From Massilia sp. R2A-15 (GTDB taxonomy: Bacteria; Pseudomonadota; Gammaproteobacteria; Burkholderiales; Burkholderiaceae_D), in contig NZ_CP131935.1 of NCBI RefSeq assembly GCF_030704305.1, forward strand, positions 372,001 to 436,000: a stretch of DNA of 64,000 bases, in the 5' to 3' direction. Below are positions 26,875 through 49,808 of this stretch, piece after piece. How positions within the stretch are numbered: position 1 is the first letter of the stretch; the number at the start of each line of letters is the position of its first letter. The notes beneath the pieces are model-generated. The model made no database searches and was not told the origin of the DNA. It was given only the letters and a program-made list of their open reading frames with translations. Both the position numbers and the translations under genes were made by a program.

Positions 26875-27136
26875 TCAAGGTTCCGGCCGGCGCCGCCGGC
26901 CCGGAGCGGCGCCGCTTCCCGGCAGGGCGCGGCGTGGCGAAAATGTGATCATAAGTTTAACTTTGTGGTCAACTCGCTACACAATTTCGTCCAGAGCGCT
27001 CCCTTTGGCGAATATCCGCGTTAAGAGATTTCTTATAGGAATGCCTCATTTATAATTCCGTCGTTCCCTCTGGCAGGAATAAATGCTGGGCAAACAATGT
27101 TTCGAGGCCCGTGTTTTGCTTATTTATAGCGTTTTG
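26875..27136. other. Intergenic region after the deaminase gene
   Basis: This is the first part of a 564-bp gap before the TonB receptor gene. The first 60 bp are GC-rich, with inverted GGCGCCG-type stretches that may form a hairpin after the deaminase stop. The rest is AT-rich, with a TATAAT at about 27051. I see no gene. The conserved promoter element at 27137-27196 and a leader of about 240 bp follow. Confidence 0.5.
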
Positions 27137-27196
27137 ATATAAATATGCAAAGCAAATCGTATTTGCCGTGCATCGCAAGCCTCATGCATAGTGAAC
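27137..27196 (+). promoter_or_regulatory. Conserved nucleoside-regulon promoter element, copy A (TonB receptor)
   Basis: ATATAAAT (27137-27144), TTGCCG (27163-27168), an 18-bp spacer and CATAGT (27187-27192) occur with exactly the same spacing as in copies B (39495-39550) and C (42799-42854). The intervening TCGTATTTGCC and ATGCATAGT are also shared. TTGCCG and CATAGT fit sigma-70 -35 and -10 boxes. The GCAAAT-CGT-ATTTGC palindrome at 27152-27166 overlaps the -35. Transcription would start near 27199 and leave a leader of about 240 nt before the receptor gene. Confidence 0.75.
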
Positions 27197-27438
27197 GATA
27201 GCAATGCAAAACGACAATATTTTTCCTGGTGATCTGTCATCAAAGTGAAATGGTCATTTGGCATGATGTCTGGCTGGACGCCGCTCGGAGAAATCCGCTT
27301 GCCGGGGGTGGCAATGAATAAGCGACGGTTGCCGCGGCAGCCGTGGCGCGCAGGTTTGCAGTAAAAAAGAGAAGTTCCTTCCGACACCAGTCGGACAGTC
27401 GCTTGACATAACTTTGTTGTCTTTTTTGGGGTTATACA

Positions 27439-30400
27439 ATGATCACTCACAAACGGATCCAGCTGACCAAGCTGGCGCTGGCATTGTCCATCGCGTTGGC
27501 CGCCGCGCCATCCTTTGCACAGAACACGACCTCTGCGATCGCAGGTCGTATTTCCGGCCCGGACGGAAAACCCGCCAGCGGCGCCACCGTCACCATCGTG
27601 CACACCGAATCGGGTTCGGTCAGCACCGTGACGACGGACGCCGAAGGCCGCTACATTGCGCGCGGCTTGCGTACCGGCGGTCCATACACGATCACCATCA
27701 GCCGTAACGGCGTGACGGAAAAGCGTGAAGGCGTGTTTACCCAGCTGGCCGAGACCGCATCGGTCGACGCCACCATCGGCGCGATCCAGTCCGTGACCGT
27801 GACCGGCTCGGCCGCACGTTCGGAAAAATTCTCGCGCAGCAACATGGGCGCCACCACCAACATCGGCGCCACCGAACTGGCCACCCAGGCTTCGATCCAG
27901 CGCAACCTGCAGGATTACGCCCGTGCTGACCCGCGCGTGTCGCAGACCGACAAGGAGCGCGGCGAACTGTCCGTGGCCGGCCAGAACTCGCGCTACAACT
28001 CGATGACCATCGACGGCGTGGCCGTGAACGACACCTTCGGCCTGGAAGCGAACGGCAGCCCGACGGCGCGCCAGCCGATCTCGATCGAAGCGATCCAGTC
28101 GGTGCAGGTGAACGTCGCCAACTACGACGTGACCCAGAAGGGCTACACTGGCGCCAACATCAACGCGGTCACCAAGTCGGGCACCAACGACTGGAAGGGC
28201 GGGATGTACTACGTGTTCCGCGACGACCGCCTGGTCGGCAAGCGCTACAACTACACCAACGACACCTACTTCGACGCGCCTGCGTTCGAAGAGACGACCA
28301 AGGGCGGCTGGGTCAGCGGCCCGCTGGTCCAGGACAAGCTGTTCCTGTTCGCGCTGCTCGAAGAGCACAAGAGCACCCGTACCGCGCCGGCCTTCGGCCC
28401 GCTGGGCAGCCCGATGACCAACGTCGGCATCACGCCGGCCGCGATTGCATCGGCACAAGCGATTGCCAAGAACACCTACAACGTCGACATCGGCGGCCTG
28501 AACGTGCCGGAAGGCTCGGCCCTGTCGGTGCGCGAGCAGATGATCAAGGTGGACTGGAACATCAGCGACAAGCATCGCGCCAACCTGCGCTACGCCACGA
28601 CCAACCAGGCCGAGCCGATCTTCCCGTTCATTTCCTCGACCGGCCTGACGCTCGATTCGACCTTCTACTCGCAAGGCAAGACCATCGAGACCACGGTCGC
28701 CCAGGTGTTTTCGGACTGGACGCCGAACTTCTCGACCGAGCTGAAGGCGTCGCGCCGCAAGTACGACGCCGTGCCGACCAACAACTCGCGCATGCCGCTG
28801 GTTGGCCTGCAGTTCACCGGCCCGCTGCCAGCCGGCAGCCCCGCCGGCGTGCCGACCGGCAGCCGCTTCCTGAACTTCGGTACCGAAAACAGCCGTCAGC
28901 GCAACATCCTCGGCACCGATACCCAGGATCTGTATGCCGGCGCCAACTGGTCGATCGACGACCACGAGATCAAGTTCGGTACCGACTATGCCCGCAACCG
29001 CATCTACAATGCGTTCCTGCAGAACATCTTCGGCAACTACACCTTCGGTTGCGTCAACAGCAGCGCCACCTACACCTACTCGTTCGGCGCCGTGAACTGC
29101 TCGACCAGCAGCCAGGCAACGATCGAGCAGGCCGTGCTGGAAAACTTCCGCATCGGCCGTCCATCGGCCTACACGGTCCAGGTAGCAGCACCGGGCGGTT
29201 CGCTGGATAACGCTGTCGCCAACTTCACGCTGAAAAACACCGGCCTGTTCGCGCAGGATACCTGGAACGTCTCGCCGGCCCTGACCCTGACCTACGGCGT
29301 GCGCATCGACTCGGCCAAGGTGGACAACCGTCCGCTGGCCAACGCCGCTGCCGCAGCGCCTATGGTTCCGGGCAAGGTTGTCGGCGGCGTCTTCACGCGC
29401 CAGTCCGGTGGCTTCGGCTACGACAACACCCGCACCATCGATGGCCAGAAGCTGATCCAGCCGCGCTTCGGCTTCAACTACAAGCTGATGCCTGACCGCA
29501 ATATGCAACTGCGCGGCGGCGCCGGCCTGTTCCAGGGCGCGGCAGCAACGGTGTGGATGTCCAACCCGTTCTCCAACCCTGGTATCGCCACCCGCGTGAT
29601 CACCTGCAGCACCTCGACCACGCCGCAGTGCCCATCGACCGGCGGCACGTTCAGCGCCAACCCGGACACCCAGCCGACCAGCATCGCCGGCTCGACCCCG
29701 GCGGCGAACGTCGACTTCCTCGACCCGAGCCTGCGCCAGCCTTCGATCTGGAAATCGAACCTGGCGTTCGAGACCGAACTGCCATGGTATGGCGTCGTGT
29801 TCGGTGCTGAGATGCTGTACACCAAGAACAAGGATTCGATCTACTACGAATCGCTGAACCTGGGTGCACCAACCGCCACCGGTACCGACGGCCGCAACCT
29901 GTACTACAACGCAAACGGCCTGGACAGCACCAAGTTCACCGCAGCGAACGGTTCCGTGACCGTCAGCGGCGTGTCGTCGAAAGCGCTGAGCAACCTGAGC
30001 TACGGCAACGTCATGCTGGCCAAGAAGACCGACCTGGGCGACGCCAAAGTGCTGACCCTGTCGTTCTCGCGTCCGCTGACCCGCGGGCTGGGTTGGTCGG
30101 TCGCCTACTCGCGCACCGATGCAACCGAAGTGTCGCCGCTGACCTCGTCGGTCTCGACCTCGAACTTCAACGGCCGCTCGGTATTCAACCCGAACGAAAA
30201 CGTTGCCTCGAACTCGAGCTACCTGGTCAAGGACCGCGTCAACATGCTGGTGAACTGGCAGAAGAAATTCTTCGGCACGTACAACACCCGCTTCGGCCTG
30301 TTCTACGAAGGCCGTTCGGGCAAGCCATTTAGCTGGACGGTCAACAATGACCTGAACGGTGACGGCCTGGCCGGTAACGACCTGATGTACATTCCGAAGG

Positions 30401-30855
30401 CCCCAGGTTCGGGCGACGTGCTGTTCTACGGCGACACGGCCGCCAACCACCCTGCCGAAGACAAGTTCTGGGGCATCGTCAACGGCGACAAGGACCTGCG
30501 CAATGCGGCAGGCAGCGTCGTGAAACGTAACGGCAGCTTCGCGCCTTGGACCAACAGCTTCGACATGCGCATCAGCCAGGAGATTCCAGGCCTGTTTGCC
30601 CGTAACAAGGCCAGCCTGGCAATCGACTTCCTGAACTTCGGCAACCTGCTGAACAAGCGTTGGGGTCACATCAACGAAGTGACGTTCCAGTCCGCCGGCG
30701 GCCAGGCACGCAGCTTCGTCGACTATGTTGGTATCGACAAGGCAAGCGGCAAGTATGTGTACGCCGTGCGTCCGCAAGTCGAGAGCCTCGACATTCGCCA
30801 GGCCAAGGGCGAATCGCAGTGGGCAATCCAGGCAACGGTCAAGTACGAGTTCTGA
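27439..30855 (+). CDS. TonB-dependent receptor, Oar-like with carboxypeptidase-regulatory domain
   Basis: The 1138-residue outer-membrane protein has a signal peptide (LALALSIALAAAPSFAQ). A carboxypeptidase-regulatory-like domain follows at about 30-105 (AIAGRISGPDGKPASGATVT), then a plug domain at about 115-235 (NSRYNSMTIDGVAVND) and a long beta-barrel ending in an aromatic residue (VKYEF). Receptors of this type import large or scarce substrates using TonB energy. Neighbouring exported nucleotidase, nuclease and deaminase genes, and a promoter element shared with nucleoside transport and catabolism genes, suggest nucleosides or oligonucleotides as substrate; this is inference. A strong terminator follows at 30883-30909. 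Confidence 0.9.
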   Translation: MITHKRIQLTKLALALSIALAAAPSFAQNTTSAIAGRISGPDGKPASGATVTIVHTESGSVSTVTTDAEGRYIARGLRTGGPYTITISRNGVTEKREGVFTQLAETASVDATIGAIQSVTVTGSAARSEKFSRSNMGATTNIGATELATQASIQRNLQDYARADPRVSQTDKERGELSVAGQNSRYNSMTIDGVAVNDTFGLEANGSPTARQPISIEAIQSVQVNVANYDVTQKGYTGANINAVTKSGTNDWKGGMYYVFRDDRLVGKRYNYTNDTYFDAPAFEETTKGGWVSGPLVQDKLFLFALLEEHKSTRTAPAFGPLGSPMTNVGITPAAIASAQAIAKNTYNVDIGGLNVPEGSALSVREQMIKVDWNISDKHRANLRYATTNQAEPIFPFISSTGLTLDSTFYSQGKTIETTVAQVFSDWTPNFSTELKASRRKYDAVPTNNSRMPLVGLQFTGPLPAGSPAGVPTGSRFLNFGTENSRQRNILGTDTQDLYAGANWSIDDHEIKFGTDYARNRIYNAFLQNIFGNYTFGCVNSSATYTYSFGAVNCSTSSQATIEQAVLENFRIGRPSAYTVQVAAPGGSLDNAVANFTLKNTGLFAQDTWNVSPALTLTYGVRIDSAKVDNRPLANAAAAAPMVPGKVVGGVFTRQSGGFGYDNTRTIDGQKLIQPRFGFNYKLMPDRNMQLRGGAGLFQGAAATVWMSNPFSNPGIATRVITCSTSTTPQCPSTGGTFSANPDTQPTSIAGSTPAANVDFLDPSLRQPSIWKSNLAFETELPWYGVVFGAEMLYTKNKDSIYYESLNLGAPTATGTDGRNLYYNANGLDSTKFTAANGSVTVSGVSSKALSNLSYGNVMLAKKTDLGDAKVLTLSFSRPLTRGLGWSVAYSRTDATEVSPLTSSVSTSNFNGRSVFNPNENVASNSSYLVKDRVNMLVNWQKKFFGTYNTRFGLFYEGRSGKPFSWTVNNDLNGDGLAGNDLMYIPKAPGSGDVLFYGDTAANHPAEDKFWGIVNGDKDLRNAAGSVVKRNGSFAPWTNSFDMRISQEIPGLFARNKASLAIDFLNFGNLLNKRWGHINEVTFQSAGGQARSFVDYVGIDKASGKYVYAVRPQVESLDIRQAKGESQWAIQATVKYEF

Positions 30856-30882
30856 TAGAACCGTCTGAGCGTTGTTGAAAAA

Positions 30883-30909
30883 GGCTGGTGGCGACACCAG
30901 CCTTTTTTT
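30883..30909 (+). terminator. Rho-independent terminator after the TonB receptor gene
   Basis: GGCTGGTG, loop GCGA and CACCAGCC are followed by seven T, 28 bp after the receptor stop. The A-run before the stem makes it usable from the other strand too. Confidence 0.92.
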
Positions 30910-31009
30910 ATGGAACGCGCAATGACGCCACCCGGCCGATACATTCGAATACATTCCATGCGGGGCAATCCTCCCACCGCCCCTGGCTCTTAGGTTATCC
31001 TTCAGTCCT

Positions 31010-32719
31010 ATGAAATCATTCCCCAATACCCTCACGCTGGCGGCGCTGGCCGCCGCGCTTCTTTCCGGTTGTGCCTCCACCGATGCGAACCGGCCCGCAG
31101 CGGCCCCAATCGACATCAACCTGGTCGCCCTGAACGACTTCCACGGTCATCTCGATGCGAGCAAATTCGTCTACACGAGCGCGCGCGACGGCAAGGAAGT
31201 CACCACCACGGCCGGCGGCATCGACAACCTCGCCGCGGCGCTGCAGGCGTTCCGCAAGGAAGACAAGGACCTGCTGCTGGTCGGCGCCGGCGACCTGGTT
31301 GGCGCCAGCCCCGCCATGTCGTCGATGTGGGCCGACGAGCCGAGCGTCGATGCGCTTGGCATGCTCGGGCTGCGCGTGTCCTCGGTGGGCAACCACGAAT
31401 TCGACCAGGGCCGCGTCGAACTGGTGCGCAAGCAGACCGGCGGCTGCGCCACGGCCGCCCAGCCGGCCAAGGCCTGCAAGTTCGCGCCCGATTTCCGCGG
31501 CGCCCAGTACACCTATCTCGCATCGAACGTGATCGACGCCGCGACCGGGCGCTCGCTGTTCCCGGCCTACTCGATCCAGACGGTGAAGGGCGTGAAGATC
31601 GCCTTCATCGGCGCCGTGCTGAAAGACACCGCCTCGGTGGTGGTGGCGTCGAGCATCGCCGGCCTGTCTTTCATCGACGAAGCGACCGCGATCAACCAGG
31701 CCGCCGCGGAAGCGCGCGTGCAGGGCGCCACCGCGTTCGTCGTGCTGATCCACGAAGGCGGCAGCACGCCCGAGCCGTTCGACCAGCCTGATTGCAGCCA
31801 GCTCAAAGGCCCCATCGTCGGCATCTCGCGCAAGCTCGATCCGGCGATTCGCCTGATCGTCAGTGGCCACACCCACAAGGGCTTCCAGTGCAAGGTGGAC
31901 GGCCGCACGATCACCCAGGCGCAGATGGGCGGGCACGTCCTCTCGCGCATCAAGCTGGCGGTCGATCCGGCCACCGGCGCCGTGCGCGACGTCAGCGTGC
32001 GCAACGTGCCGGTACTGGCAGGCCAGTATCCCGCCGACCCGGCCGCGACGGCCTTCCTGGCCTCGGTCAAGGCGCGCAGCACGGCGGCGTTGGCGCGTCC
32101 CGTAGCGCGCGTGGCGTCGAAAAGCGTCGGGCGCAAGGCCAATGCCGCCGGCGAAACGCCGCTGGGCGACCTGATCGCCGACGCCGTCGTCGAAGCCACC
32201 CGCGCGCAGGGCGTGCAGATCGGCTTCATGAACGTCGGCGGCATGCGCGCCGACTTTGACGCCGGCGACAACCTGGTGGCGACCTTCGGCCAGGCCCAGG
32301 TTGTGCTGCCGTTTTCGAACACGCTGGTGGTGATGGACATGACGGGCGCGCAGATCCGCGGCCTGCTCGAGCAGCAGTTCCAGCGGCCCGACGACCACGA
32401 GGGCCATGCGATCCTGCAGGTCTCGAGCGGACTGCGTTACCAGTGGGACGACTCGCGGCCGAAGGGCGGCAAGGTGGTCCCGGGCAGCATCCGCATCGAC
32501 GGCGCGCCGCTGGACGAAGCGAAGACCTACCGGGTGGTGGCCAACAACTTCCTGGCCGAAGGCGGCGACGGCTTCCCGATGTTCGCCAGCGCCACCAACA
32601 AGAAAGACACCAGCATCGTCGACCTCGACGCCTTCATCGGCCTGCTGGTCAAAAAAGAAACCGAAGGCGCCGGCGCATCGTTTGCCGCGCCGGCCCCGCG
32701 TATCGAACGCATCAAATAA
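31010..32719 (+). CDS. Lipoprotein 5'-nucleotidase / metallophosphatase (UshA-like)
   Basis: The 569-residue protein has a lipoprotein signal with the lipobox LLSGC (Cys21), so it is anchored in the cell envelope. The metallophosphatase domain has NDFHGHLD, GAGDLVGASP, GNHEFDQGRVE and SGHTHKGFQC with the metal-binding Asp, Asn and His residues. A C-terminal 5'-nucleotidase domain (about 360-540) has GETPLGDLIADAVVEATRA and VVANNFLAEGGDGFPMF. It should release nucleosides and phosphate from extracellular nucleotides. The S1/P1 nuclease gene follows 13 bp downstream, making an operon. Confidence 0.93.
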   Translation: MKSFPNTLTLAALAAALLSGCASTDANRPAAAPIDINLVALNDFHGHLDASKFVYTSARDGKEVTTTAGGIDNLAAALQAFRKEDKDLLLVGAGDLVGASPAMSSMWADEPSVDALGMLGLRVSSVGNHEFDQGRVELVRKQTGGCATAAQPAKACKFAPDFRGAQYTYLASNVIDAATGRSLFPAYSIQTVKGVKIAFIGAVLKDTASVVVASSIAGLSFIDEATAINQAAAEARVQGATAFVVLIHEGGSTPEPFDQPDCSQLKGPIVGISRKLDPAIRLIVSGHTHKGFQCKVDGRTITQAQMGGHVLSRIKLAVDPATGAVRDVSVRNVPVLAGQYPADPAATAFLASVKARSTAALARPVARVASKSVGRKANAAGETPLGDLIADAVVEATRAQGVQIGFMNVGGMRADFDAGDNLVATFGQAQVVLPFSNTLVVMDMTGAQIRGLLEQQFQRPDDHEGHAILQVSSGLRYQWDDSRPKGGKVVPGSIRIDGAPLDEAKTYRVVANNFLAEGGDGFPMFASATNKKDTSIVDLDAFIGLLVKKETEGAGASFAAPAPRIERIK

Positions 32720-32732
32720 GGAAAACCGAAGC

Positions 32733-33785
32733 ATGAAAAAACTAGCTTGTGTACTCGCGCTGGCAGGCGCCTTCGTCTCCACCGAGGCTCTCGCCTGGGG
32801 CAACGACGGCCACCGCGCGGTCGGCGCCATCGCCGACAAACTGATCAAGGGCAGCAACGCCGGGAAGCAGGTCGCCGCGCTGCTGCAGCCGGGCGAGAGC
32901 CTGGAATCGGTCGCCAACTGGGCCGACTGCGTCAAGGGCAATTACTGCGGTCCGCAGACACCCGAGATGGTCGCGTATGTGAACGCCAATCCGAAGGCCA
33001 GCGAGTACCACTACACCGACGTGCCGTTCCAGAAGGACCACTACCATGACGGCGACGTCGGCACCGGGCCGGACGACATCGTGCAGACGCTGAAGGAGGC
33101 GATCGCCGTCCTGCAGGGCAAGACCGATCCGGCGCTGAATCCGCACGGCTTCTCGAAGCGCGAGGCGCTGCTGCTGATCACCCACATGACCGGCGACATC
33201 CACCAGCCGCTGCACGTGGGCGCGGCCTACGTGGGCGCGGACGGTAAGTTCGTGGTGCCGAACAAGCACACCGACATCGACACCGTGGCGATCTTCGATT
33301 CGCGCGGCGGCAACAACTTCCTGATGGACGACGAGAAGGTCGCGGCCATGGGCAAGCAGATCGAAGGCGAGAACCCGAAGCCGCGCGAAGGAGTGCCGCG
33401 CGCGCTGACCAAGCCCTTCCACTCGTACTGGGATTCGACCTCGGTCGATTACGCGATGCGCCGTATCGGCACCCGCACGCCCGAGAAATTCGCGCAGGCG
33501 GTCATCGACAGCAACCCGGGCGTGGTCAAGAACAGCGGCGATCCGGTGACCTGGCCGTACCAATGGGCCGACGACGCGCTGGTGGTGTCGAAGCTTGCCT
33601 ACGCCGACGTGACCCTCGGCCCGGGCAACCGCCAGGTCGGCAAGAAGGGCGACGTGTACTACAACTGGAACATCGAAGTGCCGTCCAACTACCCGGTGCC
33701 GAGTTCGGCGATCGCCAAGACCCAGCTGATCAAGGGCGGCTACCACCTGGCCGCTTTGCTGCAGGCCATCTGGCCGAATCAATGA
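32733..33785 (+). CDS. Secreted S1/P1-type nuclease
   Basis: The 350-residue protein has a signal peptide ending EALA, so the mature chain starts WGNDGHRAVG. In S1/P1 nucleases the mature N-terminal Trp is itself a zinc ligand, which supports both the start codon (ATG 32733) and activity. Other ligands are in SVANWADCVKG, YHYTDVPF, LLITHMTGDIHQPLHVG and the DSRGGNN stretch, with HSYWDSTSVDYAM downstream. Such enzymes cut single-stranded DNA and RNA and remove 3'-phosphates. It is encoded between the 5'-nucleotidase and the MipA/OmpV gene with tight spacing; together they could turn extracellular nucleic acid into nucleosides. Confidence 0.93.
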   Translation: MKKLACVLALAGAFVSTEALAWGNDGHRAVGAIADKLIKGSNAGKQVAALLQPGESLESVANWADCVKGNYCGPQTPEMVAYVNANPKASEYHYTDVPFQKDHYHDGDVGTGPDDIVQTLKEAIAVLQGKTDPALNPHGFSKREALLLITHMTGDIHQPLHVGAAYVGADGKFVVPNKHTDIDTVAIFDSRGGNNFLMDDEKVAAMGKQIEGENPKPREGVPRALTKPFHSYWDSTSVDYAMRRIGTRTPEKFAQAVIDSNPGVVKNSGDPVTWPYQWADDALVVSKLAYADVTLGPGNRQVGKKGDVYYNWNIEVPSNYPVPSSAIAKTQLIKGGYHLAALLQAIWPNQ

Positions 33786-34594
33786 AACGCACGCTGACCG
33801 GTGCGTTGGCGCTTTTTGCCAGCGTTTCAGCGACGGCGCAGACGTTGCCGTTATGGGAAGCCGGCGTGGTGGTGGGCGCCGTCACCTCGCCCGCCTATCC
33901 GGGGGCGGCGGAAAAGACCAGCCGCGCGCTGGCGCTGCCGTTCTTCGTCTACAGGGGAGAGGTGATCCGCACCGACCAGGGCGGCATCGGCGCGCGTGTG
34001 GTGCATACCGACCGGGTCGATTTCGATGTCGGCTTCGCAGGGTCGCTGCCATCGCACGATGTAGCCGCCCGCGAAGGGATGCCGGACCTCGGCCTTCTGC
34101 TCGAATTTGGGCCCCGCCTGAAATACCTGATCGCCAACCCCACGCCGAGCAGCCGGCTGCGCATCGAACTTCCGCTGCGTGCGGTGTTCGAAGTGCATGC
34201 GGGCGTGCGCCGCCAGGGAACCACGTTCGAGCCGCGCCTGGTTTGGGATACGCGCGAGAACGGCAGCCCGTTCGGCTATGACCTGAGCGTAGGCGCGGTG
34301 TTTGGGGACCGTGGGATCAATCGCTACCTGTATGACGTGGCGCCGCAATACGCCACTGCCACGCGGCCTTCCTACAGCGCGTCCGCCGGGTTGATGCTGG
34401 TACGTGCGGGCGCGTCGGCAAGTTACCGATTCCGCCCGGACGTGCGCGTCTATGTTTATGCGCGCGAGGAAAGCTATGCCGGTACTGCGAATCTCGACAG
34501 CCCGCTGGTGAAGGGCCGCAACGGCGCGTCGTTCGGTGTCGGTGTGCGCTGGACGCTGGGCCGCTCGGCACGGAATGCAGTCAGCGCGCAATAA
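33782..34594 (+). CDS. MipA/OmpV family outer-membrane protein
   Basis: The 270-residue protein starts at the ATG that overlaps the nuclease stop (ATGA). It has a signal peptide (MKRTLTGALALFASVSATAQ) and a beta-rich body typical of MipA/OmpV: GVVVGAVTSPAYPGAAEKT, RVDFDVGFAGSLP and LGLLLEFGPRLKYLI. The C-terminal part ends in alternating barrel strands (GASFGVGVRWTLG). The role of the family ranges from a murein scaffold to outer-membrane pores. Being the last gene of the nucleotidase-nuclease operon, it may be the exit or entry pore of that system, which is inference. A bidirectional terminator follows. Confidence 0.85.
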   Translation: MKRTLTGALALFASVSATAQTLPLWEAGVVVGAVTSPAYPGAAEKTSRALALPFFVYRGEVIRTDQGGIGARVVHTDRVDFDVGFAGSLPSHDVAAREGMPDLGLLLEFGPRLKYLIANPTPSSRLRIELPLRAVFEVHAGVRRQGTTFEPRLVWDTRENGSPFGYDLSVGAVFGDRGINRYLYDVAPQYATATRPSYSASAGLMLVRAGASASYRFRPDVRVYVYAREESYAGTANLDSPLVKGRNGASFGVGVRWTLGRSARNAVSAQ

Positions 34595-34603
34595 GCGATG
34601 ACG

Positions 34604-34634
34604 AAAAAAATGGCGCCGTCGGCGCCATTTTTTT
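34604..34634. terminator. Bidirectional Rho-independent terminator
   Basis: A run of A, then ATGGCGCC, GTC, GGCGCCAT and a run of T form a symmetric hairpin between the convergent MipA/OmpV gene and the ABC permease gene. It can end both transcripts. Confidence 0.92.
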
Positions 34635-34651
34635 GTCCCTGCCAGCGTCGG

Positions 34652-35620
34652 CTAGCGCGACTTGACGAACGGTTTGCCGATCGCTTTCGGCGCCACCGAC
34701 TTGGCCATCAGGCCAGCCAGCACAATCACCGTGACGACGTACGGAATCATCTGGATCAGCGAGCCCGGGATGCGGCCCACGCCCGGCAGGTCCACGCCTT
34801 CCATCTGGATCTGCACCGCGCTGAAGAAGCCGAACATGACGCAGCCGAGCGCCGTGAACATCGGACGCCAGTTGCCGAACACGAGGGCGGTCAGGGCCAG
34901 GTAACCCGCGCCGGCCGACATGTCGCGCAGGAAGAAGCCGCTCTGCACGATCGCCAGGTAGGCGCCCGAGAACGAGCACAGCACGCCGGCGATCATCATC
35001 GCCGCATAGCGCGTCGCCTCGACGTTCACGCCGGCCGCATCGGCCGCGTGCGGATTTTCGCCGCAGGCGCGCAGGCGCAGGCCGAAGCTGCTGTGGTAGA
35101 CCACCCAGTGCACCAGCGGCACCAGCGCGAACGCCAGGTACACCAGCACCGAATGGCCGCCGATCACATGGCCGTAAAGCCAGCCGATGAAGGGCACTTG
35201 CTCCAGCGCGGCGGTACCCGGGAGGACCACGTCGTACAGGCGCGCCTGGCCGAGGTCCGGCGTGCGGCCGCCCTGCTGATAGAAGAACTGCGCCAGTACG
35301 AAGGTCAGCCCGCTCATCGCGATGTTGATCGCGATGCCGGCCACCAGCTGGTTGCCCTTTTGCGTGATGCTGACGAACGCCTGCACCATTGCCAGCGCGG
35401 CCGACACGGCCACGCCGGCCGCCACGCCGTACCACGGATTCTGCGTGGTGTAGGCGACGGCGGCCGAGGCGAACGCGCTGGCCAGGATCTTGCCTTCCAG
35501 GGCGAGGTCGATCACGCCGCTGCGCTCGGCGAACAGGCCCGCCATCGCGGCGAACATCAATACCGGGGCATTGCGGATGGTCGATACCACGATGCTGGCT
35601 AAATGGAGATCTTCCAACAT
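34652..35620 (-). CDS. ABC transporter permease, nucleoside importer (BMP-type system)
   Basis: The 322-residue integral membrane protein belongs to the BPD-transp-2/RbsC-like permease group used with BMP-type binding proteins. It has eight or more hydrophobic segments and the group signature FGLRLRACGENPHAADAAGVN, where the EAA-like loop contacts the ATPase. It is the last gene of the minus-strand operon bmp-ATPase-permease-permease, 3 bp after the first permease. The same four-gene layout is known for purine-nucleoside importers such as PnrA/YufNOPQ systems. Confidence 0.92.
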   Translation of the reverse strand: MLEDLHLASIVVSTIRNAPVLMFAAMAGLFAERSGVIDLALEGKILASAFASAAVAYTTQNPWYGVAAGVAVSAALAMVQAFVSITQKGNQLVAGIAINIAMSGLTFVLAQFFYQQGGRTPDLGQARLYDVVLPGTAALEQVPFIGWLYGHVIGGHSVLVYLAFALVPLVHWVVYHSSFGLRLRACGENPHAADAAGVNVEATRYAAMMIAGVLCSFSGAYLAIVQSGFFLRDMSAGAGYLALTALVFGNWRPMFTALGCVMFGFFSAVQIQMEGVDLPGVGRIPGSLIQMIPYVVTVIVLAGLMAKSVAPKAIGKPFVKSR

Positions 35621-35623
35621 GGC

Positions 35624-36709
35624 TTACCCTTTCTTCCCAACGTTGATCAGTTTCAGGATTGCCGGCGCATAGAAGTTCTCCATCGCGCCGCAGAACAGGA
35701 TGATCAGGCCCTGGATGAAAATGAAGGTCTCCTGCGGGATGTTCGGCTTTTCCAGCGACAGGTCGAAGCCGCCCTGGATCAGGGCGCCGAACAGGACCGA
35801 CGACAGGAAGATGCCGACCGGATGCTGGCGCCCCATCAGCGCGATCGCGATGCCGACAAAGCCGGCGCCGGCGGGGAAGTTCAGCGACAGGTAGTGGGTC
35901 GAGCCCATGACCGAGTTGACAGCCGCCAGGCCCGCCAGCGCGCCCGACACCAGCATCGCGACGATGATCATGCGGCTGATTTTCACGCCGGCGTAGTGCG
36001 CCGCGTGCTGATTGAGGCCGGTGGCGCGCAGCTGGTAGCCCCACGACGAACGCCACACCATGACGCCGTACACCACCAGCGCGAAGATCGCGAACAGGAA
36101 GCTGATGTTCAGCGGCGTGTCGCCCAGGATCGGGAAGAGCTGGTTCAAGCGCGGCATTTCGGCGGCGGCCGAGAACACGCGGCTGGCCGGATTCTGCTGG
36201 CCTTCCGGGATCAGGTACTTGACGATGATGAAGTTCATCAGACTCGCGCAGATGAAGTTGAACATGATCGTCGTGACCACCACGTGGCTTCCGCGTTTGG
36301 CCTGCAGGTAGCCCGGGATGAAGGCCCAGGCGGCGCCGAACAGCGCGGCGCCCACCATGCCGGCCGGGATCAGCAGCCAGCCAGGCAGGATGCGGTCGAG
36401 GGCCAGCATCGCCAGCGTCAATCCCAAGCCGCCGAAGTACATCTGGCCTTCGCTGCCGATGTTAAAGAGGCCGGCCTTCATCGCGATCGACACGGCAAGG
36501 CCGGTGAAGATGAAGGTCGAGGCGTAGAACAGCGTGTAGCTCAGGCCTTCCGGATTGATGATGGCGCTGTTGATCAGGATGCCCATCGATTCGGTGGGGC
36601 TCTCGCCGAGCAGGTGGATCACCAGCGCGGCCACCAGCAGCGCCGACAGCAGGTTCAGGAGGGGCAGGGCGACCGCGGTGGCCCAGCGTGGAAGTTCAGT
36701 CGTTTTCAT
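35624..36709 (-). CDS. ABC transporter permease, nucleoside importer (BMP-type system)
   Basis: The 361-residue membrane protein is the larger of two paired permeases. The loop GYQLRATGLNQHAAHYAGVK is the counterpart of the coupling loop in the partner permease. About ten hydrophobic segments are seen. The start overlaps the end of the ATPase gene by 4 bp and the partner permease follows after 3 bp, so the two permeases are made together and probably form a heterodimeric channel. Confidence 0.92.
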   Translation of the reverse strand: MKTTELPRWATAVALPLLNLLSALLVAALVIHLLGESPTESMGILINSAIINPEGLSYTLFYASTFIFTGLAVSIAMKAGLFNIGSEGQMYFGGLGLTLAMLALDRILPGWLLIPAGMVGAALFGAAWAFIPGYLQAKRGSHVVVTTIMFNFICASLMNFIIVKYLIPEGQQNPASRVFSAAAEMPRLNQLFPILGDTPLNISFLFAIFALVVYGVMVWRSSWGYQLRATGLNQHAAHYAGVKISRMIIVAMLVSGALAGLAAVNSVMGSTHYLSLNFPAGAGFVGIAIALMGRQHPVGIFLSSVLFGALIQGGFDLSLEKPNIPQETFIFIQGLIILFCGAMENFYAPAILKLINVGKKG

Positions 36710-38235
36710 GAGGTATGCATCCCGCCCATCAGGAGGCCAATGCGGGTGGTGTCAAATTCTTCGATATTCAGTTCGCCGGTGATGCGGCCGCCCGACATGA
36801 CGATGATGCGGTCGGCCAGCGCACGCACTTCTTCCAGTTCGACCGACACCAGCAGGATCGCGACGCCTTCGTCGCGCATTTTCAGCAGCTGCGTGTGGAT
36901 CGACTCGATGGTGCCGATGTCGACGCCGCGGGTAGGCTGCCCGACCAGCATCAGCTTCGGCGCCGCCGACACTTCGCGCGCGATCACCACCTTTTGCTGG
37001 TTGCCGCCCGAGAGCAGGCCGATGCGCAGGTCCGGATTGGCCGGGCGCACGTCGAAGGCCTTGAGCAGGCCCGCGCAGCGTTTGGCGATGGCGCCGAAAT
37101 CGAACAGGCCCCAGCGGTTCTTCACCCGGTCCTGGTAGCCGAACACGGTGTTCTGCTCGACCGAGAAATCCTTGATCACGCCGTCGCGCAGCCGGTCTTC
37201 CGGCACGTGGCCGATGCCCAGGTTGCGGAAGGTGGCCGGCAGGCCGTCGGCGTCGTGGCGGCCGGCGAACGGCAGCGCCTTGCCCAGCATCTCGACCTTG
37301 CCGGAGGTCGGCAGGCGCATGCCCGACAGGATCTCCATCAATTCGCTCTGGCCGTTGCCCGACACGCCGGCGATCGCGACGATCTCGCCGGCGCGCAGCG
37401 TGAAGCCGATGTCGGCCAGCAGGCGCACGCCGGCCTTGTCCTGCAGCTGCAGGTCGGAGACGGCGAGCACCGGCGCGCCCGGCTTGAACGGCGCGCGCGG
37501 CAGCTCGCTCTGGATCGGGCGCCCGACCATCATGTTGGCCAGTTCTTCCTTCGACGTGGCCGCGGTGGCGACGGCGCCGACCACGCGGCCGGCGCGCATC
37601 ACCGTCACCTGGTCGGTGATCTCCATGATCTCGCCCAGCTTGTGGGTGATCAGGATGATGGTTTTGCCCTGCTCCTTGAACAGGCGCAGGATCTCGAACA
37701 GCGACGCGGTCTCCTGCGCGGTCAGCACCGCGGTCGGCTCGTCGAGGATCAGGATGTTGGCGCTGCGGTAGATCTGCTTGAGGATCTCGACGCGCTGCTG
37801 GGCGCCGACCGACAGGTCCGAAATGGTCGCCAGCGGATCGACGTCGAGGCGGTAGCGCGTGCAGATCTCGCGCAGCTTCGCCTCGGTGGCGGCGCGGTGC
37901 GCGGCCAGGCGGAAGCCGCCTTCGGTGCCGAGCATGACGTTGTCCAGCACGGTCATGTTCTCGACCAGCATGAAGTGCTGGTGCACCATGCCGATGCCCA
38001 GCGCGATCGCCTCATGGCTGGTGCGGATGTTGCGCGGCTCGCCGTCGATCAGCAGCTGGCCGCTGTCGGCGTTATAGTAGCCGTACAGGATGCTCATCAG
38101 GGTCGACTTGCCGGCCCCGTTCTCGCCGATCACGCCGTGGATCGAACCTTTGGCGATGGTAAAGCTGACGTCGGCGTTCGCCTGCACCGGGCCGAAGGCC
38201 TTGCATATGTTGCGAAATTCTACGGCTGGCTGCAT
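36706..38235 (-). CDS. ABC transporter ATP-binding protein, two nucleotide-binding domains
   Basis: The 509-residue ATPase has two ABC domains, as in sugar/nucleoside importers of the RbsA type. The first has Walker A GENGAGKSTLMSIL and signature LSVGAQQRVEILK with Walker B ILILDEPTAVL. In the second, Walker A is degenerate (IAGVSGNGQSELME, lacking the GKS/T lysine) while the signature LLSGGNQQKVVIAREV is intact. This asymmetry is normal for the group. It energises nucleoside uptake through the two permeases downstream. Confidence 0.94.
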   Translation of the reverse strand: MQPAVEFRNICKAFGPVQANADVSFTIAKGSIHGVIGENGAGKSTLMSILYGYYNADSGQLLIDGEPRNIRTSHEAIALGIGMVHQHFMLVENMTVLDNVMLGTEGGFRLAAHRAATEAKLREICTRYRLDVDPLATISDLSVGAQQRVEILKQIYRSANILILDEPTAVLTAQETASLFEILRLFKEQGKTIILITHKLGEIMEITDQVTVMRAGRVVGAVATAATSKEELANMMVGRPIQSELPRAPFKPGAPVLAVSDLQLQDKAGVRLLADIGFTLRAGEIVAIAGVSGNGQSELMEILSGMRLPTSGKVEMLGKALPFAGRHDADGLPATFRNLGIGHVPEDRLRDGVIKDFSVEQNTVFGYQDRVKNRWGLFDFGAIAKRCAGLLKAFDVRPANPDLRIGLLSGGNQQKVVIAREVSAAPKLMLVGQPTRGVDIGTIESIHTQLLKMRDEGVAILLVSVELEEVRALADRIIVMSGGRITGELNIEEFDTTRIGLLMGGMHTS

Positions 38236-38322
38236 AGCGAATCAGTAGGTAAGGGTAAATGCATCAAAAGCGCGCCGGACCGGGCTGGCCGGTGCGGCGC
38301 GCTTTCAGTTAATACGAAAAGA

Positions 38323-39318
38323 TCAGACCGGGCAGCTGCTATTGGCGCGGTAGTCGATGACCTTGATCTTGCCATTGATGATGGCCGTCTTGGCTTCGTT
38401 GACCTTCTTCTCGATTTCCGGCGATACCACCGCGCGGTTATCCTTGTCGAGCGCCCAGTCCACGCCGCCTTCCTTCAGGCCGCGGTAGGTCACTCCCGGT
38501 TTCCAGGTGCCGTTCTTGACCGCCATGAAGGAGTCGTAGATGGCGCCGTCGACGCGCTTGACCATCGAGGTCAACATCGTGCCCGGGTGGAGGTAGTTCT
38601 GGTTCGAATCGACGCCGATCGCCAGCTTGCCTTTTTCCTTCGCGGTCTGCAGCGTGCCCATGCCGCTGCCGCCGGCAACGGCGAACACCACGTCGACGCC
38701 GCGGTCGAACTGCGCGCGCGCCAGTTCGCCGCCCTTGGCCGGATCGTTCCAGGCTGCGCTGGTGGTGCCGACCATGTTCTGCAGGACTTCCACTTTCGGG
38801 TTATTGGCCTTGGCGCCCTGGGTGTAACCGCAGGCGAAGGCGCGGATCAGCGGGATGTCCATGCCGCCCACGAAACCGAGCTTCTTGGTCTTCGACGCCA
38901 TCGCCGCGGCCACGCCCACCAGGTAGGAGCCTTCTTCTTCCTTGAACAGCACGGAATTGATGTTCGGGCCTTTGGCGACGCTGTCGATCAGCACGAATCG
39001 CACGTTCGGGAATTCGGCCGCGACCTTCTGCACCGCCTGGGTCTGCGAGAAGCCGATCGCCGCGATCAGGTCGAGCTTCTTGCGCGCCAGGCCGCGCAGC
39101 ACTTGCTCGGCCTGGGTGTCGCTGCTGGCCTGCGCTTCGATGTAGTTGATCTTGGTCTCGGCCTTGAAGCGGCTGGCGCCTTCGAATGCGGACTGGTTGA
39201 ACGACTTGTCGAACTTGCCGCCGGCGTCGTAGACGATGCCCAGTTTCGGGTCGGCCGCCGAGGCGCTGGCAGCGACGCACAGCGCCGCGATCGTGATACT
39301 AAGTTGCTTTAATTTCAT
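38323..39318 (-). CDS. BMP family nucleoside-binding protein (PnrA-like)
   Basis: The 331-residue protein has a cleavable signal peptide (MKLKQLSITIAALCVAASASA) and the BMP/PnrA fold: KLGIVYDAGGKFDKSFNQSA near the mature N-terminus, FVGGMDIPLIRAFACGYTQG and VVFAVAGGSGMGTLQTAKE. BMP proteins of this kind bind purine nucleosides in the periplasm. The mature part shows no lipobox, so it is probably a soluble periplasmic protein rather than a lipoprotein. It is the first gene of the importer operon and is preceded by copy B of the conserved promoter element (39495-39550) and a leader of about 170 nt. Confidence 0.93.
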   Translation of the reverse strand: MKLKQLSITIAALCVAASASAADPKLGIVYDAGGKFDKSFNQSAFEGASRFKAETKINYIEAQASSDTQAEQVLRGLARKKLDLIAAIGFSQTQAVQKVAAEFPNVRFVLIDSVAKGPNINSVLFKEEEGSYLVGVAAAMASKTKKLGFVGGMDIPLIRAFACGYTQGAKANNPKVEVLQNMVGTTSAAWNDPAKGGELARAQFDRGVDVVFAVAGGSGMGTLQTAKEKGKLAIGVDSNQNYLHPGTMLTSMVKRVDGAIYDSFMAVKNGTWKPGVTYRGLKEGGVDWALDKDNRAVVSPEIEKKVNEAKTAIINGKIKVIDYRANSSCPV

Positions 39319-39494
39319 GAAGGCTCCTGGAATATCGATATTGTACCCGGCGCAACGGCTGCGTTGGGAGGGTCTGTGTAGCTTAATAGTAACTAAACAG
39401 GCAAAGCCAGCGATTCCACGTCGGCGAGACGGATTGTGTCAGGCCTGTGCGCAACAAGTGGTTACCGATTGTATCGAGTGTGATTCCAGTGCGA
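39319..39494. other. Leader region of the nucleoside importer operon
   Basis: About 175 bp between the inferred start of transcription (about 39488, minus strand) and the importer start at 39318. It contains the perfect 12-bp palindrome AATATCGATATT at 39331-39342, just upstream of the ribosome-binding region, and no reading frame I would accept. Confidence 0.5.
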
Positions 39495-39550
39495 ACTATG
39501 CATCAATGGCAATATGTATGGCAAATACGATTTTTCTTGCCGATTTATAT
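39495..39550 (-). promoter_or_regulatory. Conserved nucleoside-regulon promoter element, copy B (ABC importer)
   Basis: On the minus strand ATATAAAT (39550-39543), TTGCCA (39524-39519), 18 bp and CATAGT (39500-39495) repeat the geometry of copies A and C exactly. The intervening GGCAAGAAAAATCGTATTTGCC and ATGCATAGTT closely match the other copies. It points towards the importer operon. Confidence 0.75.
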
Positions 39551-39575
39551 TTTTGTGAAATATATGGAGGAGGTT

Positions 39576-39662
39576 GTCGTACCTGTGGAGGCAGGTACCC
39601 ATGCTGAATCGGCGCAGAGGTGAAGCGAACCCAGTATGGGTACCTGCCTGCGCAGGTGCGAC
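39576..39662. repeat. Double-hairpin inverted repeat element, type with TACCTGC stems
   Basis: Two 31-bp arms (39576-39606 and 39632-39662) are inverted copies with a few mismatches. Each arm contains an inner hairpin of the form TACCTGC ... GCAGGTA, followed by CCCATACTG. The layout matches the element at 48374-48452, whose stems read ATTCCCGC and GCGGGAAT. It lies between the lysR-like gene and the importer promoter. Confidence 0.8.
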
Positions 39663-39668
39663 ACCCAT

Positions 39669-40574
39669 CTACTCGTGCGCGACGGGATTGAGGATGTTCA
39701 GGAACGCCCGCACCACCGGCGCGTCGTCCTGCGTGGTGTAGGCGATATACAGGTTGGCCGACGGCGGATCGGTCTTGATCGGCAAAAAGATCACGCCCGG
39801 CCAGCCGATCCGGCTGGTGGTCTCGGGCATCAGCGCCACGCCCAGTCCCGCGCCGACCATCGCCAGCAGGGTCTGCGGCTCGGTCGCCTCCTGGAATATG
39901 GTCGGCTGGAAGCCGGCGTCGATGCAGCACTGGATCAGGTAGCGCGGGAACGCCGACTTGTCGAGCGCGAGCGTCAGCATCGGCTGGTCGGCGATGTCGA
40001 TCAGTTCCACGTGGCCCTTGACGGCCAGCGGATGGTGCTCGTTGACCGCCACGCACACGTTCTCGCGGAAGCATAGCTCCTGGCGCAGGTTGTCGTGTTT
40101 GAGTTCGTCCGGATCGAGCGGCGGCTCGCGCCAGAAGCCGACGTCGATCTGCTTGGCGCGCAGCGCCTCGTACTGCGCGTTCGGGCCCGACTCGTGCAGC
40201 GTCCAGGTCACGCGCGGGAACTTGGTCTGGAATTCTTCGAGCAGGCTGGGAATCGGCCCCCACATCGCCGAGCCGACGATACCCACGCGCAGGCGCCCGA
40301 CTTCGCCGCGGTCGATCTGGCGGATCGTGTCGATCGTCATGCGCATCCGTCCCAGCAGCTCGGACGCCTCGGTCATCAAGGCCTTGCCGGCCACGGTCAG
40401 CTCGAACGTGCGGGTGGTGCGCGCAAACAGCTTCACGCCAAGCTCGCTCTCGAGCTTCATGATCTGCTGCGACAGCGGCGGCTGCGAAATGTGCAGCCGT
40501 TCGGCCGCGCGGCTGAAGCTCTTTTCCTCTGCGACCGCGAGGAAGTATTTCAGCTGTTTCAGGTCGATGGACAT
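39669..40574 (-). CDS. LysR family transcriptional regulator
   Basis: The 301-residue regulator has the LysR N-terminal winged helix-turn-helix (LKQLKYFLAVAEEKSFSRAA, then LHISQPPLSQQIMKLESELG) and a C-terminal substrate-binding domain from about residue 90. It is encoded 10 bp after psuG on the same strand and is probably co-transcribed with psuK-psuG, so those genes or the nearby nucleoside importer are likely targets. LysR genes are more often divergent from their targets; the co-directional position is less usual. The effector is unknown. Confidence 0.92.
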   Translation of the reverse strand: MSIDLKQLKYFLAVAEEKSFSRAAERLHISQPPLSQQIMKLESELGVKLFARTTRTFELTVAGKALMTEASELLGRMRMTIDTIRQIDRGEVGRLRVGIVGSAMWGPIPSLLEEFQTKFPRVTWTLHESGPNAQYEALRAKQIDVGFWREPPLDPDELKHDNLRQELCFRENVCVAVNEHHPLAVKGHVELIDIADQPMLTLALDKSAFPRYLIQCCIDAGFQPTIFQEATEPQTLLAMVGAGLGVALMPETTSRIGWPGVIFLPIKTDPPSANLYIAYTTQDDAPVVRAFLNILNPVAHE

Positions 40575-40584
40575 GGGAGCGGTC

Positions 40585-41516
<932 letters not shown>

Positions 41517-41520
<4 letters not shown>

Positions 41521-42659
41521 TCCTGGTAAAGGGCGTTGAAAGGCTGCGGCGCGGCGGCGCCGGCGTCGAGGGCGGGAACGTCGTCGAGGCTGTCGATGTC
41601 GAGGTGGGGGCAGACCGTCTCCTCGCAGGCGAGCGTCATGGCCGAGAGCTTCAGGCCGCGCCGGCACGCCAGCTCGAGGTCTTCGCTGCCCTGGAACAGC
41701 GACCAGCACACGGCTGCCGCGAAGGCGTCGCCGGCGCCGGTGACGTCGACGATATGCGCGTCCGGCGCGTCCAGCTGGCCGACGCCGCCGGCGCGGGTGA
41801 AGACCACGCCTTTGCCGCCGCGCGTGACGATGACGTCCTGGACGCCTTGCGCGCGCACCAGCGCGCAGGCCGCGGCGAAGTCGGCGTCGGTGACGATCTT
41901 CTTGCCGACCCGGGTCTCCAGCTCGCCGTGATTGAGGATCAGCAGGCGCACGCCGCGCAGGTCCAGCGGCAGGCGCGCCATCTTCGGCTGCGACACCGCC
42001 ACCACGATCAGCGGAACCGCGTCGCGCGCCGCTTCCGCGATCAGCGCGGCCACCGTGTCGAGCGGCAGGTTCAGGTCGGCCACACTCAGGGCGGGCAGGG
42101 CGCCCGGCGCCCGCCCGGCCAGGAAGTCCGGCGTGATGGCGTCGTACAGGGCCATGTCGGCCAGCGCCACCAGCATTTCGCCGTGGTCGTCCAGCACCGC
42201 GGTGTAGGTGCCGCTGCAGGTGTTATCGAGTTTGAGCGTGCCGCGCGTGTCGATGCCGGCCGCCTCGGCGTGCGCCAGCAGCGCGCTTCCCGACGAGTCG
42301 TTGCCGATCGCCGTCGTCAGCGACACCGGGGCGCCGAGCCGGGCCAGGTTCTCGGCGATGTTGCGCGCCACGCCGCCGAACGATTCGTCCTGGCGCGCGG
42401 GATTCGAAGTGCCCATCGTCAGCGTCGCCAGCGAACGCAGTTTGCGATCCAGGTTGGCCGCGCCGAAGCAGGCGATCGGCCGGCTCCCGGGCAGCACGTA
42501 GGCGCGCCCGAGCAGGCGCCGCTCGCGGATCAGGCTGGCGATGTGGCCCGCCACCGCCGAGCGCGACAGGCCCAATTGCACCGCCAGGTCCTGCTGGGAG
42601 ATGAACGGGTTGGAACGGATCAGTTCGTAGAGCTGGTCTTTTTTCGACGAGTCGGTCAC
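41517..42659 (-). CDS. psuK: Pseudouridine kinase with N-terminal helix-turn-helix domain
   Basis: The 380-residue protein joins a small winged-helix domain (residues about 8-55: [20 protein letters not shown], then [13 protein letters not shown]) to a PfkB kinase (about 65-370). PfkB marks are [30 protein letters not shown], and [20 protein letters not shown] with the catalytic Asp and anion hole. The kinase phosphorylates pseudouridine for PsuG, the next gene. The DNA-binding part suggests it may also regulate its own operon, and repeated sites lie 15-45 bp upstream of its start. HTH-PfkB fusions are known in this kinase group. Confidence 0.93.
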
Positions 42660-42671
42660 GGGGTACTTTTC

Positions 42672-42704
42672 ACAAACATTTGTCTTTGATGGTAAACACT
42701 TGTT
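42672..42704. promoter_or_regulatory. Repeated AAACAYTTGT sites upstream of psuK, candidate operator
   Basis: AAACATTTGT (42674-42683) and AAACACTTGT (42694-42703) are direct repeats with a 20-bp period, two helical turns. The first is part of the palindrome ACAAA-CA-TTTGT. They end 13-44 bp before the psuK start codon. A natural candidate binder is the HTH domain of PsuK or the LysR protein, but this is inference. Confidence 0.45.
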
Positions 42705-42798
42705 CGCCGCGAGTCAACGACGGATCGTTTTAAGCCAGGCTTTAAATAGGCGATGTCTGCACGGGCCCACAGGATTGCCCAGGATTTATATGCAGTAT

Positions 42799-42854
42799 AT
42801 ATAAATAAGGAAGAAAAAGGGTATTTGCCATACATATCGAACTTCATGCATAGT
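42799..42854 (+). promoter_or_regulatory. Conserved nucleoside-regulon promoter element, copy C (phosphorylase/deo operon)
   Basis: ATATAAAT (42799-42806), TTGCCA (42825-42830), 18 bp and CATAGT (42849-42854) match copies A and B in order, strand and spacing. GTATTTGCCATACATAT is shared with copy B and TTCATGCATAGT is nearly identical to A and B. Transcription would start near 42861, about 70 nt before the phosphorylase start. Confidence 0.77.
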
Positions 42855-42929
42855 TATAATACTAGGCTGGCCGTTCGCGCCCGCACCTGTCCCCTGATTG
42901 AAGCCCCTCTCACCGAACAAGGAAACCGC

Positions 42930-43787
42930 ATGTCCAACAACACCCCATTCGAAGCCGCCGATGTAATCCGCGCGCGCAAGCCTGGTTTCGCGCCCCGCGT
43001 GGCGATGATCCTCGGTTCCGGACTGGGCGTGCTGGCCGAGCAGATGACCGACGCCGTCTCGATCGGCTTCGACGAACTGCCTGGCTTCCCGATCAGCACC
43101 GTGCACGGCCACGCCGGCGAACTGGTGCTCGGCACGCTGGCCGGCGTCGACGTCGTCTGCATGAAAGGCCGGGGCCACTTCTACGAAGGCTACGGCATGG
43201 GCGTGATGACGTCGGCCGTGCGCACCATGAAGCTGCTCGGCTGCGAGATGCTGTTTGTGACCAACGCGGCCGGTTCGCTGCGCACCGAAGTCGACGCCGG
43301 CAGCCTGGTCGCGCTGACCGACCATATCAACTGGCTGCCAGGCACGCCGATGATCGGCCCGAACGACGACCGCTTCGGCCCGCGCTTCTTCAGCATGGCC
43401 AACGCCTACGACGCCGACATCCGCAACCTGGTCAAGCAGACCGCCGCCGACAAGGGCATCACCCTGCACGAAGGCGTGTTCATCGCCTACCCGGGCCCGA
43501 ACTTCGAAACCGCCGCCGAGATCCGCGCGATGGCCCGCCTGGGCGCCGACGTGGTCGGCATGTCTGTGGTGCCGGAAGTCGTCTCGGCGCGCCACTGCGG
43601 CCTGAAGGTCACCGGCGTGTCCGTCATCACCAACCTGGCCGAAGGCATGTCGCCGTTCCCGCTGTCCCACGAGCAGACCCTGAAGTACGCCGCCATCGGC
43701 GCCAAGGACCTGGTCACCCTGATCCTGGCCTTCCTGGAAAACGTGGCGAAGACGCCGGGCGACGCCTCGCCGCGCGCCGACGCCTGA
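42930..43787 (+). CDS. punA: Purine-nucleoside phosphorylase, trimeric PunA/XapA type
   Basis: The 285-residue enzyme cleaves inosine, guanosine and deoxy forms with phosphate to free base and (deoxy)ribose 1-phosphate. Family motifs are AMILGSGLGVLAEQM, VHGHAGELVLG, GRGHFYEGYGMGVMTS and FVTNAAGSLRTEVDAGSLVA. The start at 42930 has AAGGA upstream (42919-42923); the frame is open further upstream but that would read through the promoter. It is the first gene of the phosphorylase-deo operon, directly behind conserved element C, and its products feed deoB. Confidence 0.95.
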   Translation: MSNNTPFEAADVIRARKPGFAPRVAMILGSGLGVLAEQMTDAVSIGFDELPGFPISTVHGHAGELVLGTLAGVDVVCMKGRGHFYEGYGMGVMTSAVRTMKLLGCEMLFVTNAAGSLRTEVDAGSLVALTDHINWLPGTPMIGPNDDRFGPRFFSMANAYDADIRNLVKQTAADKGITLHEGVFIAYPGPNFETAAEIRAMARLGADVVGMSVVPEVVSARHCGLKVTGVSVITNLAEGMSPFPLSHEQTLKYAAIGAKDLVTLILAFLENVAKTPGDASPRADA

Positions 43788-45959: not shown

Positions 45960-45976
45960 ATACCAACGGATTCGTC

Positions 45977-48355: not shown

Positions 48356-48373
48356 TTAGTTACATTCAAGACC

Positions 48374-48452
48374 GTCATTCCCGCGCAGGCGGGAATCCAT
48401 AGCACCTGCGAACAGCAAGCTCAGTATGGATTCCCGCCTTCGCGGGAATGAC
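48374..48452. repeat. Double-hairpin inverted repeat element, type with ATTCCCGC stems
   Basis: Arms 48374-48401 and 48425-48452 are inverted copies (27 of 28 bases match). Each holds an inner hairpin ATTCCCGC ... GCGGGAAT followed by CCATA. Such repeats are widespread in proteobacteria. This one sits inside the deo operon, between the ALDH16-like gene and deoA, where it could act on RNA stability or partial termination. Confidence 0.88.
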
Positions 48453-48485
48453 GTTTGTAGAGCCAACGAATTCAAGAGGTACACC

Positions 48486-49808
<1,323 letters not shown>

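Follow-up and report, generated by a model that had tools for sequence, protein, structure and literature searches.

The 64,000-nucleotide window of Massilia sp. R2A-15 analyzed here (contig NZ_CP131935.1, positions 372,001 to 436,000) harbors three copies of a promoter element, located upstream of genes encoding a TonB-dependent receptor, a Bmp-type ATP-binding cassette (ABC) importer and a purine nucleoside phosphorylase (PNP)/deo operon. This element is proposed, with a probability of roughly 0.8, to be the operator-promoter of a LysR-family activator of the XapR type. Its best candidate regulator is very probably the XapR-like LysR protein encoded at 39669-40574 on the minus strand, adjoining copy B, and the regulon is likely to be of XapR type, extended here to the TonB receptor, the ABC importer and the deo operon. 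These assignments are drawn from sequence comparisons.

The three copies occur at the positions and on the strands reported in the first-pass annotation, and the spacings it described (26 bp from ATATAAAT to TTGCC and an 18-bp spacer to CATAGT) were borne out, as was the association with the three gene groups. Each copy, however, spans 71 bp rather than the 60 bp initially reported, the left half-site having been missed. ATATAAAT makes up the right half, and a further stretch upstream of it the left half, of a LysR-type dyad, ATTTATAY-N7-RTATAAAT. Downstream of this dyad, GTATTTGCC and a promoter of the form TTGCCA-N18-CATAGT come at constant distances. The earlier suggestion that the bases upstream of the -35 form a regulator site is retained, with the correction that these bases belong to a T-N11-A dyad of LysR type, of which they make up one half.

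27122-27192, plus strand: copy A, full element
27122..27144, plus strand: copy A dyad ATTTATAG-N7-ATATAAAT, predicted LysR recognition site, exact ATTTATA-N9-TATAAAT
27159..27192, plus strand: copy A GTATTTGCC block, with -35-like TTGCCG (27163-27168) and -10-like CATAGT (27187-27192)
39565-39495, minus strand: copy B, full element
39543..39565, minus strand: copy B dyad ATATATTT-N7-ATATAAAT, 2 mismatches to ATTTATA-N9-TATAAAT
39495..39528, minus strand: copy B GTATTTGCC block, with TTGCCA (39524-39519) and CATAGT (39500-39495)
42784-42854, plus strand: copy C, full element
42784..42806, plus strand: copy C dyad ATTTATAT-N7-ATATAAAT, exact ATTTATA-N9-TATAAAT
42821..42854, plus strand: copy C GTATTTGCC block, with TTGCCA (42825-42830) and CATAGT (42849-42854)

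The element is rare in the genome. Its core, GTATTTGCCRTRCAT-N8-TSATGCATAGT, has three exact matches in the window and none in 100 dinucleotide shuffles. With up to 3 mismatches allowed, only copies A, B and C are recovered from the 5.03-Mb genome (reversed control pattern, 0), so that the core precedes no other gene there; the same three copies are the only matches to a degenerate pattern of the dyad plus GTATTNG at up to 2 mismatches. Exact ATTTATA-N9-TATAAAT occurs in the genome only at A and C, and with 2 mismatches at B and five other places. The dyad alone, at up to 3 mismatches, is not enriched in the genome, being found at 24 places vs 36 for the reversed control.

A consensus was derived from 204 hits (176 distinct) to a loose rule allowing up to 5 of 16 mismatches in the dyad and up to 3 of 9 in GTATTTGCC, a set which includes some chance hits and a few from outside the family. 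The consensus reads ATTTATAY-N7-RTATAAAT-N4-AARNAAAATNGTATTTGCCATACATAT-N6-TGATGCATAGT. Its N7, N4 and N6 gaps and its flanks hold little information, suggesting that constraint, and not mere kinship, preserves the remaining element, in agreement with the earlier view that its conservation is functional.

LysR-type sites have the form T-N11-A. A dyad of this form is present in the consensus at about the position (around -65) expected of a LysR-type operator; its centre would lie at approximately -66, and that of GTATTTGCCATAC at approximately -34, if CATAGT is the -10 of the predicted start. The GTATTTGCCATAC block, whose centre is 32 bp away from that of the dyad, forms a partial palindrome over the -35 TTGCCA and is inseparable from promoter constraint. 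ATACAT-N10-ATGCAT was considered as a second binding site; it is partly self-palindromic and indistinguishable from promoter constraint.

Conservation was evaluated in 80 PNP loci, the best 80 of 255 PNP relatives in the genome collection, which derive from Massilia, Duganella, Janthinobacterium, Rugamonas, Pseudoduganella and a few unclassified bacteria. The element lies 5' of PNP in all of them (80/80) and 5' of the Bmp gene in 41/41 loci where this gene was found. The spacer from TTGYCA to CATAGT measures 18 bp in 74/80 PNP copies and 17 bp in 6/80, both compatible with a sigma-70 promoter. TATAAT follows the CATAGT-like hexamer immediately in 16/80 PNP copies, and also in copy C (42855-42860), so that the exact -10 is not settled. 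Receptor orthologs were searched for in the 22 genomes sampled from genera g1 and g11 and recovered in 18, the window's own included, and the element is the best site of the receptor locus in 18/18 (scores 26.6-79.6, against 20.0 or less for the next best; 3/18 belong to the training set). These loci also contain a 5'-nucleotidase (18/18) and, in most cases, an adenosine-deaminase-like gene (16/18). Over the whole family, the core was detected in 187/392 genomes and the reversed control in 7/392. A similar look-alike of the core with 3 mismatches, TACTTGCCGGACATG...TTATGCATAAT, is found in L004, L006, L007 and L008 (genus g28), which are devoid of the LysR.

Occurrence of the element follows that of the LysR protein. 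Orthologs of the latter (E<=1e-60) are present in 171/392 family genomes; both were found in 166 genomes, the element only in 21, LysR only in 5 and neither in 200. Direct reading of the LysR-only genomes revealed the element in G318, G354, G368 and G019, with more mismatches or a shorter spacer; the LysR matches in G111 are all paralogs, with identities no higher than 39%. As for the element-only genomes, 17/21 carry it at 3 mismatches and are chance-like by score among the matches listed (G252, G312 and G317 fall outside these). In G183, whose assembly is fragmented, the element is genuine and sits at the end of a contig, and the LysR reaches no more than 39% identity. Gene order is also consistent with a regulator transcribed divergently from its target across the site, an arrangement seen directly in L072 and L165: in L072 lysR is directly divergent from PNP with the element between them. 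In G019 it is divergent from an ABC ATPase gene, again with the element in between, and a second element precedes a Bmp gene on another contig. For the dedicated regulator foreseen in the first-pass annotation, this LysR is the best candidate.

The relationship of this LysR to XapR was assessed with NF007439 (PRK09986, cut-off 290 bits), which we take to be the XapR model, in line with the 531 bits obtained by E. coli XapR. The window LysR scores 319 bits, whereas YfeR (122) and four LysR paralogs from other Oxalobacteraceae (197-256) remain below the cut-off. Identity to the E. coli counterparts amounts to 41% for the window LysR (XapR) and to 66% for the window PNP (XapA). The link to a XapA-type phosphorylase is seen both in the TIGR01699 score of the PNP (406 bits, cut-off 370.9) and in the constant position of the element 5' of its gene. 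XapR-like proteins are rare: 6/398 genomes of the phylum match the window LysR at 1e-65, and E. coli XapR is matched in 4/247 genomes of the order to which G557, one of the genomes discussed below, belongs.

A matrix built from 143 Oxalobacteraceae sequences (dyad plus GTATTTG) was tested on E. coli and seven XapR-like loci. The best site of the fetched locus lies upstream of xapA in 5/8, namely E. coli (25.4), G758 (13.5), G589 (13.4), G648 (13.4) and G762 (27.7), each scoring above all 300 shuffles of the respective upstream region. In whole-genome scans of G762, G758, G589 and G648, using a degenerate pattern designed to include these sites, the xapA site is the only zero-mismatch match in each case, and 1-2 further places per genome appear at two mismatches. 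The first-pass annotation knew of no described site with this pattern; the recurrence of the layout at xapA in E. coli and part of its relatives gives the site a precedent. According to the accessible part of PMC7205307, E. coli xapAB has two XapR sites, one partly over the -35 and the other further upstream, and xapR is apparently not autoregulated; the sites are rated low-evidence in the portion available of PMC7567609. Excerpts of PMC12844172 place a site of HusR, another LysR factor, within the same xapA-yfeN spacer, a region which may serve more than one regulator.

Several observations weigh against the XapR-type assignment. The matrix fixes the 14-bp spacing, which is hence imposed on its hits. 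At xapA of G557 and G734 it gives no convincing site, the former scoring 6.0, facing away from xapA and being equalled by 2/300 shuffles, and the score of the latter being reached by 233/300, despite LysR proteins above the XapR cut-off (395 and 407 bits, respectively); by eye, a TATCAAT half-site, 14 bp and then AATTGG remain in both. In G453 neither a PNP within 20 kb nor a convincing matrix site was found. The xapA-yfeN spacer of E. coli does match the dyad plus GTATTNG, but its strong site (L143:7965-8033) faces yfeN, and the one facing xapA, beside it, is weak (3.8). Within the window, lysR does not adjoin PNP directly but comes third in the divergent cluster, and no XapB relative was detected there at E 1e-3, an ABC importer occupying its place. 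Finally, the 80 PNP loci constitute one clade and are not independent.

The genes surrounding the copies are as follows.

27439..30855, plus strand: TonB-dependent receptor with CarboxypepD_reg domain (Pfam), downstream of copy A
31010..32719, plus strand: 5'-nucleotidase (Pfam 5_nucleotid_C, Metallophos), after the receptor
34652-35620 and 35624-36709, minus strand: two ABC permeases (Pfam BPD_transp_2)
36706..38235, minus strand: ABC transporter ATPase (Pfam ABC_tran, two stretches)
38323..39318, minus strand: Bmp/PnrA-type substrate-binding protein (Pfam Bmp), downstream of copy B
39669..40574, minus strand: LysR-family regulator, XapR-like, proposed element binder (NF007439 score above; HTH_1, LysR_substrate)
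40585-41709, minus strand: PsuG-like gene, between LysR and copy C
41517-42659, minus strand: PfkB kinase with N-terminal helix-turn-helix (HTH), between LysR and copy C, rejected as regulator
42930..43787, plus strand: PNP of XapA type (TIGR01699), downstream of copy C
43813-45006, plus strand: DeoB
within open reading frame (ORF) 44007-45959, plus strand: DeoC
within ORF 45545-48355, plus strand: aldehyde dehydrogenase
48426-49808, plus strand: DeoA

PNP and the deo genes (43813..49808) are presumably carried on one transcript. Upstream of copy A lies an adenosine-deaminase-like gene (25378-26874) which scores below all equivalog cut-offs, and the ABC importer is separated from the receptor/5'-nucleotidase genes by a gene for a MipA-like outer-membrane protein (33563-34594). 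Just 5' of the HTH-kinase gene, two direct repeats AAACAnTTGT occur 20 bp apart (42674-42703). Words of this kind are found in 72/80 loci with a loose pattern, and none in L072, which is without the kinase; they may be the kinase's own operator. This kinase, a PfkB-type sugar or nucleoside kinase with a fused N-terminal winged HTH, encoded beside a psuG-like gene, is possibly a kinase-regulator of pseudouridine breakdown.

Other explanations of the element differ in how well they accommodate these data. The LysR protein could bind the element without being a functional XapR, its signal being for example a deoxyribonucleoside, a pyrimidine nucleoside or pseudouridine. The identity to XapR of only 41%, the presence of thymidine phosphorylase and deo genes among the targets and the position of lysR immediately after the psuG-like gene, in the same orientation, would all fit such a signal. 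We nevertheless consider it unlikely, as the protein exceeds the XapR cut-off, the phosphorylase is of XapA type, the operator layout is common to E. coli xapA, and L072 lacks the psuG-like and kinase genes, yet keeps LysR and elements. Binding by the HTH-kinase, divergent from PNP, is highly improbable: it has a DNA-binding domain (HTH_24), adjoins copy C and is present in 79/80 loci, but searches at E<=1e-20 did not recover it from G019 or the L072 genome (completeness of the latter not stated), both of which retain LysR and elements, and on this ground it was rejected; moreover, it has a different candidate site, the AAACAnTTGT repeats, on its own side. A strong constitutive sigma-70 promoter with A-rich, UP-like upstream sequence and no dedicated regulator, to which TTGCCA/CATAGT at 17-18 bp and the A-rich block before the -35 would conform, is dismissed as very improbable, given that the palindromic half-sites are conserved letter by letter beside unconserved spacers and that the element is restricted to genomes with the LysR and to nucleoside genes.

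For the XapR-type operator-promoter we infer the following mechanism from the arrangement of sites and genes. One LysR dimer would occupy ATTTATAY-N7-RTATAAAT, the T-N11-A dyad located some 66 bp upstream of the predicted start, and a second dimer the GTATTTGCCATAC block, centred 32 bp (three turns) downstream and overlapping the -35. The inducer would be a nucleoside, xanthosine or a related purine nucleoside being the first guess, and inducer-bound LysR would recruit RNA polymerase to TTGYCA-N17/18-CATAGT. Joint induction would then include the TonB receptor with the 5'-nucleotidase, the Bmp-type ABC importer and the XapA/deo degradation operon, allowing uptake across both membranes followed by cleavage by XapA and the Deo enzymes. 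Binding, activation, inducer, start sites and operon structure, as well as the substrates of receptor and importer, are predicted.

The regulator family and the LysR mechanism are already known. As far as the literature searched shows, the operator model, the extension of the regulon to the TonB receptor and the yfeN prediction are new; in that literature, with most subscription journals outside it, no title or abstract on the element or on an Oxalobacteraceae XapR regulon was found. The analysis names a regulator, and a LysR activator with E. coli sites rated low-evidence (PMC7567609, accessible part) receives a sharply defined operator model. It is also predicted that the TonB receptor serves nucleoside or nucleotide uptake and that yfeN, whose product is a Tsx-family channel by Pfam, is a further XapR target in E. 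coli. At slightly less than even odds, we tentatively propose that XapR is the master regulator of complete outer-membrane-to-cytoplasm nucleoside scavenging in the Massilia/Duganella/Janthinobacterium group, with the linked receptor as a TonB-dependent nucleoside/nucleotide receptor and yfeN as an unrecognized second XapR target. The outer-membrane arm may be old, because the strongest XapR-type site in E. coli points at yfeN.

In LysR-type promoters the recognition site, of the form T-N11-A, is situated near -65 and the activation site near -35. The Massilia element resembles them in the form and position of the dyad and in the roughly three-turn spacing to the -35 block, and differs from them in its longer conserved dyad arms and its conserved A-rich linker. 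Enterobacterial nucleoside genes are controlled by CytR, CRP and DeoR, a system which differs from the present one in its LacI- and DeoR-family repressors and in its sites. Common to both is the joint control of nucleoside uptake and breakdown, as described in the available part of PMC3454398. E. coli PunR, a LysR regulator of the purine nucleoside transporter gene punC, likewise has a 23-bp palindromic site, but of another sequence, with the consensus TsttwTCAAwAwwwTTGaaGGCA given in the accessible text of PMC8376909. A close counterpart is E. coli XapR/xapAB, with which the Massilia system shares the LysR regulator and the XapA target; the predicted second Massilia site would also match the two-site layout, with one site partly over the -35, given in the part of PMC7205307 available. 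It departs from that system in its targets (the ABC importer, the TonB receptor and the deo operon, with no XapB relative in the window), and the strong E. coli site is oriented towards yfeN.

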